64,000 bases of DNA, taken from the NCBI RefSeq assembly GCF_900215325.1, contig NZ_OCMS01000002.1, positions 620,001-684,000 on the forward strand, read 5' to 3'. The notes beneath the pieces were generated by a model. It saw only the letters and a program-made list of their open reading frames with translations. It did not search any database and was not told the origin of the DNA. The translations under genes were made by a program, and so were the position numbers. This document shows, piece after piece, positions 4,981 to 6,884 of this stretch (positions are counted from its first letter, which is position 1; every line of letters begins with the position of its first letter). Source of the DNA: Fibrobacter sp. UWB16 (lineage in GTDB: Bacteria > Fibrobacterota > Fibrobacteria > Fibrobacterales > Fibrobacteraceae).

Positions 4981-5199
4981 ATGTTCAAGAAATCCCTTAT
5001 TTTGTCGTCTTTAGTTTGCATTTCAATGTTTGGATTCTCGGGCTGCTCCAACCAGGAGGCTGAGTACAAAATTGCAACTCTTACCGAAGAAAATGCCCGT
5101 CTGGCACGTCAAGTCCTTGTTCTCAAGGCTACTTTGGATTCATTGAACGCCCACAACAAGGCTGTGGATCACTCGCTCAAGTCTCTGGACATGAAATAA
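4981..5199 (+). CDS. small coiled-coil lipoprotein
   Basis: A 72-residue protein with a lipoprotein signal: MFKKSLILSSLVCISMFGFSGC, lipobox FSG|C. The mature 50 residues form a probable heptad coiled coil (IATLTEENARLARQVLVLKATLDSLNAH cut at either end by charged residues), so it resembles Lpp-type or OmpA-linked small lipoproteins in layout, though not clearly in sequence. It ends in Lys, as Lpp does, but that alone does not show attachment to peptidoglycan. Leaderless start predicted. Confidence 0.75.
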   Translation: MFKKSLILSSLVCISMFGFSGCSNQEAEYKIATLTEENARLARQVLVLKATLDSLNAHNKAVDHSLKSLDMK

Positions 5200-5287
5200 G
5201 AGAACCTTTGGGCGCATGTGCTCAAAAAAACATACAATTTTCTCTCATTTTCTTACAATAAACCGAATTTCTGCAAGAAAAATTTGT

Positions 5288-5293
5288 TAAATT
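5288..5293 (+). promoter_or_regulatory. -10-like hexamer for structured RNA
   Basis: TAAATT is followed by TGCGCTC and then the first base of the outer stem of the RNA at 5301. The predicted transcription start therefore coincides with the 5' end of the folded element, which supports both calls. Confidence 0.45.
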
Positions 5294-5300
5294 TGCGCTC

Positions 5301-5464
5301 GTGACTGGCCCCGGTTTGTCGCCACGGCGAAAACCATTTTTGCTTCCCACGTGAAGCCCCCGCGACCGTCAAGTCTCCAAGGAGGCGCTAGTAAGATGGT
5401 CTTTAATTAACCCACACATTCCAGTCACCCCGCCTGCAGGTTATTTTCCAGCCTGCTCGTGTGG
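5301..5464 (+). ncRNA. candidate structured RNA or riboswitch-like 5' leader
   Basis: An outer stem GTGACTGG (5301-5308) pairs perfectly with CCAGTCAC (5421-5428). It encloses three hairpins: GGTTT/TCGCC with GGCGA/AAACC (5313-5335), GCTTC with GAAGC (5342-5357), and GACC with GGTC (5364-5401) around an inner CTC/GAG. A second stem, CCACAC (5412-5417) with GTGTGG (5459-5464), encloses GCAGG (5436-5440) with CCTGC (5452-5456). That second stem crosses the outer stem, so the two form a pseudoknot or are mutually exclusive. The start codon of the following gene lies 28 bases downstream, and no intrinsic terminator separates them. It may be the leader of that gene or a separate small RNA. It does not match a riboswitch class I know. 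Confidence 0.5.
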
Positions 5465-5492
5465 TTCAACCCTTACTTTATGAGGTGCCCAC

Positions 5493-6122
5493 ATGGAAAT
5501 AATCGCTCTCGCACTTTCACTCCTCGCAGTGATTCTGTGCATTGTTATCCTTGTTAAGGTTAATAAGCTTCTCACGATGCTTCGTACCCCGATTTTCAAG
5601 AAGCTCACCCCGGACATGAACTTGAAGCCGTCCGCCCGTCGCCCGATCAGCGCACAGGAAATGGCTCAGCGTGGTGGCAACAATAAGGAAAATCGCCAGA
5701 ACAAGGAACGTCCGAACAACAATAATAAGGACAACCGCAATCAGCAGCAGGCTCAGGCTCATGCCCCTGCAACGCGTGATCGCAATGAACAACAACAGCG
5801 TCCGGAACGTGGCCCGCGCCGCGAACGCCGCCCGGAACGCCCGCATCGTGAAGCTAACGCTGAAGCTCCTGTTGCTGCTGCAGAACAGGCCGCTCCGATT
5901 GCACCGGCTGCTGAAGCTCCGGTCGCCGAAGCTCGTCGCCCGCTCGCTCCGCGCATTCCGGTTGAAACTCCGGCCGCTCCGGCTGTCGAAGCTGCCCCGG
6001 TCGCTCCGGTTGCTGAAGCCCCGGCAGAAGCTGCTGCAGAAACCGCTTTTGATCCGTCCAAGGTCCGCTATGGCCGCCGCAACGTGATCAAGAAGGCTCC
6101 GGAACTCTCCGAAGAAGCTTAA
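5493..6122 (+). CDS. membrane-anchored low-complexity protein
   Basis: The 209-residue protein starts with one hydrophobic segment (EIIALALSLLAVILCIVILV, residues 2-21). A basic linker and an Asn/Gln/Arg/Glu-rich low-complexity region follow (about 60-125), then an Ala/Pro-rich stretch (125-185), and a short charged C-terminus with FDPSKVRYGRRN. GAGGTG precedes the ATG. The layout suggests a membrane-tethered flexible protein, possibly binding nucleic acid or cell wall, but I recognise no family. It follows the structured RNA and ends at a strong terminator, so it is likely a single-gene transcript. Confidence 0.75.
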   Translation: MEIIALALSLLAVILCIVILVKVNKLLTMLRTPIFKKLTPDMNLKPSARRPISAQEMAQRGGNNKENRQNKERPNNNNKDNRNQQQAQAHAPATRDRNEQQQRPERGPRRERRPERPHREANAEAPVAAAEQAAPIAPAAEAPVAEARRPLAPRIPVETPAAPAVEAAPVAPVAEAPAEAAAETAFDPSKVRYGRRNVIKKAPELSEEA

Positions 6123-6140: not shown

Positions 6141-6176
6141 AAAAATCCCAGTCCAACCGGACTGGGATTTTTTTTG
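6141..6176 (+). terminator. bidirectional intrinsic terminator
   Basis: AATCCCAGTCC pairs with GGACTGGGATT around a 4-base loop, with an A-run before and a T-run after. It lies between the convergent low-complexity gene and yoeB, and can serve both strands. Confidence 0.9.
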
Positions 6177-6180
6177 TATG

Positions 6181-6444
6181 CTAAACGTTTTCGTAGTGAC
6201 CTTTGCAAGAAAGAATGTCGATAAATTCACCATTAATTCTGTAGATTAGCCGATTGCCATCGTCAATTCGTCGACTCCAAAATCCGCTGAGGTTTCCTTT
6301 CAATGCTTCAGGCTTGCCTAAGCCTTCGAAATGGTTTCGCTCGATGTCTTTTACAAGTTGGTTAACTCTTTTGAGCGTTTTTTTATCTTGGGCTTGCCAA
6401 TAGAGGTAGTCGTCCCAAGCTTTATCGGACCAAATTTTCTTCAT
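6181..6444 (-). CDS. yoeB: YoeB-family mRNA interferase toxin
   Basis: The 87-residue protein aligns over its whole length with YoeB toxins, which cleave mRNA in the ribosomal A site. The residues known to matter in E. coli YoeB fall at the same numbers here: E46 (GKPEAL), R65 (GNRLIY), H83 and Y84 (CKGHYEN at the C-terminus). The ATG shares one base with the antitoxin stop (TAATG), so the pair is coupled. The terminator just downstream closes the operon. The toxin looks intact. Confidence 0.93.
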   Translation of the reverse strand: MKKIWSDKAWDDYLYWQAQDKKTLKRVNQLVKDIERNHFEGLGKPEALKGNLSGFWSRRIDDGNRLIYRINGEFIDILSCKGHYENV

Positions 6445-6713
6445 TAGTCGTCAACCTCAATGAGTTCATGTTCAACACCCTTCCCGGCGTTAAGCTGCTC
6501 GATGCCTTTCTTAAGAGCTTCGATGTCGTTTGCTTTGGCGTTGTAACGGGCAGAAGGTTCACGGACTTCAAAGGGAATGCGATGCTCATTGATGACGTTC
6601 TTGATGAACATGTAGATGGCTGCAGAGGTGGACAGCCCTACGTTATTGCAGAACTCGTCAAAACGTTCTTTGTCTTTGCTGTCGATTCGTGCGGAAACTG
6701 TTGCCTGTGCCAT
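6444..6713 (-). CDS. RelB/DinJ-family antitoxin
   Basis: The open frame extends upstream, but the start at 6713 has AAGGAG 8 bases before it and gives MAQATVSARIDSKDKERFDEF, the ribbon-helix-helix opening typical of RelB/DinJ antitoxins, followed by GLSTSAAIYMFIKNVI. The C-terminal half (about 50-89) is acidic and should wrap the toxin. DinJ-type antitoxins are more often paired with YafQ or RelE toxins than with YoeB, so this is a mixed pairing. It should repress its own operon; an inverted repeat at 6783-6821 lies upstream. Confidence 0.9.
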   Translation of the reverse strand: MAQATVSARIDSKDKERFDEFCNNVGLSTSAAIYMFIKNVINEHRIPFEVREPSARYNAKANDIEALKKGIEQLNAGKGVEHELIEVDD

Positions 6714-6782
6714 AAAATGCTCCTTTTTTATATTACTCAATTTACAAAAATGTAGTGCAAAGTGCAATAGATTGAATTTGAT

Positions 6783-6821
6783 GCTCTGCAAAATAATGCA
6801 AATTGCGTGATTTTGCAGAGC
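6783..6821. promoter_or_regulatory. 12-bp inverted repeat upstream of toxin-antitoxin operon
   Basis: GCTCTGCAAAAT at 6783-6794 and its exact complement ATTTTGCAGAGC at 6810-6821 are separated by 15 bases. The element lies 70-108 bases upstream of the antitoxin start and after the terminator of the preceding gene. It could be an operator for the RelB-type antitoxin. Its distance from the start codon is large, and a second hairpin role cannot be excluded. Confidence 0.5.
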
Positions 6822-6830
6822 TTTCTGCGG

Positions 6831-6860
6831 CAAAAAATCCCGCCTCGTTGGGCGGGACCT
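6831..6860 (-). terminator. intrinsic terminator of SPFH gene
   Basis: On the minus strand GTCCCGCC pairs with GGCGGGA around a short loop and is followed by TTTTTT. It lies directly after the SPFH gene stop. Confidence 0.88.
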
Positions 6861-6884
6861 TTGCTTTTTAAACCTTTTCAGCAC

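Follow-up and report, generated by a model that had tools for sequence, protein, structure and literature searches.

A conserved structured leader RNA upstream of one membrane-protein gene in the Fibrobacteraceae

Related leader systems and the Fibrobacter locus

The autogenous leaders of ribosomal proteins L20, S15 and S4 each serve a single gene or operon and place a multi-stem fold beside the ribosome-binding site, while the rne (RNase E) 5' UTR leader of enterobacteria mediates feedback control of one gene, which encodes a membrane-associated, Arg-rich RNA-binding protein. In Fibrobacter, a genus of rumen fibre-digesting bacteria, the Fibro-purF motif is known. A literature search for that motif by name gave no result, and elements such as the rne 5' UTR leader are cited in PMC2864571. 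Leaving aside a 2017 list of 224 candidates, we found no description of the element reported here in the literature, and a 2010 compilation of 104 candidates mentions none from Fibrobacter in its main text.

The element lies in a 64,000-nucleotide stretch of the genome of Fibrobacter sp. UWB16, hereafter the window, to whose positions all coordinates refer; leader and gene are both on the + strand (Table 1). With the ribosomal-protein leaders (L20, S15, S4 and others in Rfam) it shares the restriction to one gene or operon and a fold of several stems close to the ribosome-binding site, but the gene here does not encode a ribosomal protein and an Rfam match was not obtained. The likeness to the rne leader is that of a structured leader of one gene with a membrane-associated, Arg-rich product, whereas sequence and Rfam matches to it were absent, the nuclease domain was not found in the product, and feedback is in the present case something we infer.

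Scanning the whole window against Rfam 15 at gathering cut-offs returned no matches, positions 5200-5600 gave none even at E <= 10, and none of the matches in nine relatives overlapped the element, in agreement with the original prediction, which had assigned the element to no known RNA class. The stretch CCCCGCGACCGUCAAG superficially resembles the conserved core of the cobalamin riboswitch (RF00174); this class was nevertheless rejected, as no match was obtained at the locus even at E <= 10 and the only match in the genome lies elsewhere, on contig C4. There, one clear cobalamin riboswitch was recorded with 80 bits (G000 contig C4:40432-40641, - strand, locus L031). The element represents a new leader-RNA family, absent from Rfam, of an already known kind, the structured mRNA leader.

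Table 1 Features of the leader and its gene in the window.
Feature	Position	Strand	Description
Promoter -10/-7-like box	5288..5295	+	TAAATTTG; presumed driver of the leader transcript
P1 outer stem, 5' strand	5301..5308	+	GUGACUGG; pairs with 5421-5428; likely at or near the RNA 5' end
P2 hairpin	5313..5335	+	5313-5317/5331-5335 and 5319-5322/5327-5330
P3 hairpin	5342..5357	+	folds in the window; sequence and length variable, genus-wide alignment impossible
P4/P4a domain	5364..5401	+	stem 5364-5370/5395-5401; inner hairpin 5373-5377/5382-5386
P1 outer stem, 3' strand	5421..5428	+	CCAGUCAC; pairs with 5301-5308
P5 hairpin	5429..5464	+	base CC 5429-5430/GG 5463-5464; upper stem 5436-5442/5450-5456
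Ribosome-binding segment	5465..5492	+	UUCAACCCUUACUUUAUGAGGUGCCCAC; Shine-Dalgarno GAGGUG 5482-5487; nearly invariant across the genus
Gene under presumed control	5493..6122	+	209 aa; one N-terminal TM segment; Arg/Asn/Gln-rich and Ala/Pro-rich disordered tail
Intrinsic-terminator-like stem and T run	6146..6175	+	TCCCAGTCCAACCGGACTGGGA followed by T run; 3' of the gene

Fold and compensatory changes

The 8-bp outer stem GUGACUGG/CCAGUCAC and the three hairpins that it had been proposed to enclose were found at the predicted positions (P1, 5301-5308/5421-5428). The + strand fold of 5301-5464 (-62.2 kcal/mol) was more stable than that of shuffled sequences (z = -2.71; one of 200 shuffles equally stable), and the minus strand folded no better than its shuffles (z -0.30). 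Among relatives, nearly all leaders likewise folded better than shuffles, with a mean z of about -2.5 (n = 56).

Of the 25 Fibrobacter genomes among 41 searched at the DNA level, 24 yielded the element. Alignment of 24 copies revealed near-invariant blocks (CCGUCAAG, UAAGAUGG, UUUCCAGC and AACCCUUAC-UUAUGAGGUGCC) separated by variable stretches, and RNAalifold derived 41 pairs from it, 12 of them with kept double changes. When the named structure was applied to 19 distinct sequences, 94.2% of cells were paired and double-sided changes occurred in 15 pairs, amounting to 55 cells vs 14.9 in shuffles, while slid structures paired in 33-47%. For 54 distinct sequences across genera, 93.6% of cells were paired, with double-sided changes in 25 of 43 pairs (227 cells vs 58.8 in shuffles; slid controls 33-45% paired) and the same picture in a subset of 26 sequences, the later, family-level alignments being fitted to the model and hence biased in its favour, whereas the earlier MAFFT alignment was not fitted.

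The search for compensatory changes in other Fibrobacter genomes, by which the original prediction had proposed to judge the stems, gave a strong positive result for P1 and for the helices inside it: such changes were found in P1, in 5313-5335, in both P4 helices (5364-5370/5395-5401 and 5373-5377/5382-5386) and in the distal hairpin 5436-5456. They affect six of the seven main pairs of P1, and in genus g12, whose leaders were added by reading the upstream regions of more distant gene copies, most of this stem has been rewritten from GUGACUGG/CCAGUCAC to GAAGUCGC/GCGACUUC with pairing kept. In P2, which is paired in 89.5% of cells, eight of nine pairs showed double-sided changes. P4/P4a is the domain of highest sequence conservation (CCGUCAAG...UAAGAUGG, with a conserved internal loop, GCUAGUAA), and compensatory changes within it fall in the outer P4 pairs and in P4a. 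The upper stem of P5 is paired in 91% of cells, with double-sided changes in three pairs, and carries a loop in which UUUCCA is conserved. P1, P5 and the ribosome-binding segment occur in all leader-bearing genera; P4/P4a was detected in genera g1, g11, g12 and g16 and was not found in g13, g15 and g17, with P5 conserved in the P4-less genera too. Two Fibrobacter leaders (L024:1280-1583 and L072:3008-3292) contain an extra 60-80 nt between P4 and the P1 3' strand. The secondary structure of the leader is conserved.

This does not extend to a second stem, 5412-5417/5459-5464, which had been proposed to cross the outer stem as a pseudoknot or switch. Its bases do pair in the window itself, but across relatives 65.1% of cells were paired vs 62.5% in shuffles, and three double-change cells compared with 3.4 in shuffles. 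On these pair counts the stem was rejected as a crossing pseudoknot or switch, and it is a local coincidence of the clade to which the window belongs; GG 5463-5464 finds its better partner in CC 5429-5430, with which it forms the base of P5.

Linkage to one gene and predicted limits of the transcript

A search of 168 genomes of the phylum with covariance model R1 revealed that the RNA is present once per genome, with carriers in Fibrobacter and further genera of the Fibrobacteraceae, the exceptions to single copy being a contaminated assembly with two loci and a copy split in two pieces at a contig end. The RNA lies 4-29 nt upstream of 90 of 91 close gene copies, and no strong match away from the gene was found in the 168 genomes. 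The one exception to this linkage, genus g15, has by eye a leader of similar design, with a P1-like stem and a P5-like hairpin, that falls below the search threshold. Six Fibrobacter genomes without the RNA also lack a match to the gene (G017, G098, G100, G116, G137 and G138; assemblies 62-89% complete). The surrounding genes vary from genus to genus, whereas the RNA and its gene remain side by side. Named records in a second collection likewise assign the carriers to Fibrobacter or other Fibrobacteraceae; most derive from metagenomes of rumen and gut.

Outside this group, genera g8-g10 keep weak relatives of the gene without the RNA, so that the RNA is not required for the gene; the g10 copies that were read lie directly after another reading frame. 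In genus g5, from another family of the class (f3; L090, L093, L095, L097), a gene relative has a different leader, in which TATAAT is immediately followed by an AGGTG...CACCT hairpin and then by a GAAAGAAGAAAG stretch before the ATG; homology between this leader and the element was not accepted. In G059, from a remote family of the phylum, model R2 gave a weak match that covers its P4 part; the matched stretch lies in what looks like coding sequence, and the match was taken as chance. Upstream of the leader, a 72-aa lipoprotein-like frame of coiled-coil character (4981-5199, + strand) is kept in several Fibrobacter loci and is not kept in other genera.

As had been predicted, the gene downstream encodes a low-complexity membrane protein: the product is basic, has a single TM segment and an Arg/Asn-rich disordered tail, and Arg makes up about 11-13% of the protein in two members that carry the leader. 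Orthologues share the N-terminal TM segment, an Arg/Asn-rich and Ala/Pro-rich middle part and a conserved C-terminal KVRYGRRN motif, which is also present in the window's product, and a search with the N-terminal 65 residues recovered strong copies from the family and, at class level, weak relatives (down to E 1e-3). The Pfam scan gave sub-threshold matches only (DUF4834, E 0.0045); weak NCBIfam matches to the ribonuclease E profile in 10 of 17 members are likely compositional, and neither the Pfam nor the NCBIfam scan detected a nuclease domain.

The box preceding the outer stem reads TAAATTTG in most leaders of the family and TATATTTG in others, at a near-fixed distance of 12-13 nt. TAnnTTTG is the promoter box of Bacteroidota, a related phylum, and by analogy the resemblance of both forms to it would plausibly put the transcription start on the first base of P1 or close to it. 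The original prediction of a promoter-like box with a start on the first base of the stem therefore stands in so far as the box is conserved and such a start plausible, whereas a sigma-70 scan found no promoter at the box; a literature search on F. succinogenes yielded no start-site mapping. At the other end, a terminator-like stem follows the gene, as similar stems do in relatives, and leader and gene are predicted to form a monocistronic unit. Just beyond it, two adjacent small frames (6181-6884, - strand) resemble by eye a RelE/ParE-type toxin and a RelB-type antitoxin, and may be a recent insertion, since the sequence after the terminator differs in several close relatives.

Between the RNA and the ATG no convincing terminator was found, although P2 (5315-5331) scores terminator-like, and conservation extends into the ribosome-binding site and as far as the start codon. 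Because of these two features and the near-fixed spacing of the box, and because the RNA is single-copy and directly upstream of the same gene only, we are confident that the element is a structured cis-acting 5' leader and not a separate small RNA. Covariation, the linkage in 90 of 91 gene copies and the lack of an Rfam match together bear out the proposal of a structured cis-regulator outside the known classes. The RNA stands at the head of the mRNA for a single membrane protein, in almost every Fibrobacter and in several related genera, and is therefore very probably a control element for this gene alone.

Candidate modes of control

The reading we place first, and hold tentatively at somewhat less than even odds, combines this leader with autogenous feedback. 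Transcription would start at or next to P1, so that a structured 5' leader of about 190 nt on a monocistronic mRNA has a closed stem at its 5' end; P4 and the loop of P5 would together form a recognition site beside the ribosome-binding site, and binding there would lower or raise translation, and perhaps mRNA stability, of the gene for the membrane-anchored, Arg/Asn-rich disordered protein only. The likeliest binder would be the encoded basic protein, because none of the genomes seen has another gene under the control of this RNA, the RNA binding of the protein being guessed from composition. What makes feedback our first choice is thus the strict linkage to one gene together with a basic, disordered and membrane-anchored product; the element is restricted to this gene, and it is the binding of the RNA by the product that we infer.

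Simple Shine-Dalgarno sequestration as the means of such control is not supported: over 56 leaders the mean unpaired probability of the Shine-Dalgarno sequence was 0.16 vs 0.18 in shuffles, and local hairpins around it were no more stable than shuffles in nine representatives. A candidate sequestering hairpin (5471-5475/5481-5485) is invariant in the genus, shorter outside it and of shuffle-level stability, and an anti-SD release pairing of UAAG (5392-5395) with CUUA shows no variation within the genus and has been lost from others. Pairing of the P5 loop UUUC with the Shine-Dalgarno GAGG is available in 45 of 46 sequences, but is not evidence, since G-U pairs are included and the pairing never varies. 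A short leader reading frame, with an ATG overlapping the Shine-Dalgarno sequence, was also rejected, as the frame is not conserved and the ATG is absent in g12.

Second in confidence, and rather unlikely, is that another RNA-binding protein or ribonuclease, such as RNase E/G or RNase III, reads the leader, or that the leader acts as an mRNA stabiliser in which a 5'-terminal P1 prevents 5'-end-dependent decay and mRNA lifetime depends on the hairpins (cf. the ompA and rne leaders). The near-fixed spacing between P1 and the promoter-like box, which would put the stem at the 5' end, is consistent with this, as is the better-than-shuffled folding of nearly all relatives. The RNase E/G of this genome is in addition short, with an open frame of 578 aa, in agreement with a survey that found Fibrobacteres RNase E/G too short for a degradosome scaffold (PMC3071783). 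A plain stabiliser, however, would need no invariant P4 and P5 loop sequences.

We consider it less likely still that the leader belongs to a new class of riboswitch for a small molecule or an ion, whose P1-closed multi-hairpin domain would bind a ligand (one linked to the state of the membrane or envelope, for example) and alter access to the ribosome-binding site. The compact multi-stem domain closed by P1, the high conservation of unpaired nucleotides in P4 and in the loop of P5, and the lack of a match to any Rfam class would suit such an RNA, but riboswitch classes usually control several genes, whereas the target in all genomes is a single gene with no known metabolic role; moreover, P4 as the likeliest pocket is missing from three genera, and no expression platform was found in the crossing stem, which is unsupported, or in the masking of the Shine-Dalgarno sequence, which is at chance level, though a platform of another type may exist. 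An independent small RNA lying upstream of the gene by chance, offered as an equal alternative in the original prediction, has a strong fold, its own promoter-like box and the terminator-like match at P2 to recommend it, but is highly improbable, as all strong copies adjoin the same gene while other neighbours change, conservation is highest up to the Shine-Dalgarno sequence, and termination at P2 would remove the conserved P4 and P5.

Autogenous feedback, which ranks ahead of these alternatives, can be extended to a bolder and doubtful proposal, namely an RNA-protein feedback pair specific to the Fibrobacteraceae, in which the membrane-anchored, Arg-rich disordered protein, alongside a short RNase E/G, may be a stand-alone RNA-binding or degradosome-like scaffold that titrates its own synthesis through a modular leader, with the P4 receptor domain gained or lost between genera. 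The present results add a well-supported, uncatalogued RNA family to a phylum with little RNA biology and point to tight control of a protein whose function is unknown. Because each genome has one copy of the RNA and one of the gene, experiments with reporters, deletions and binding assays would give clean answers, and, if feedback is borne out, the leader could lead to a membrane protein of Fibrobacter that binds RNA.
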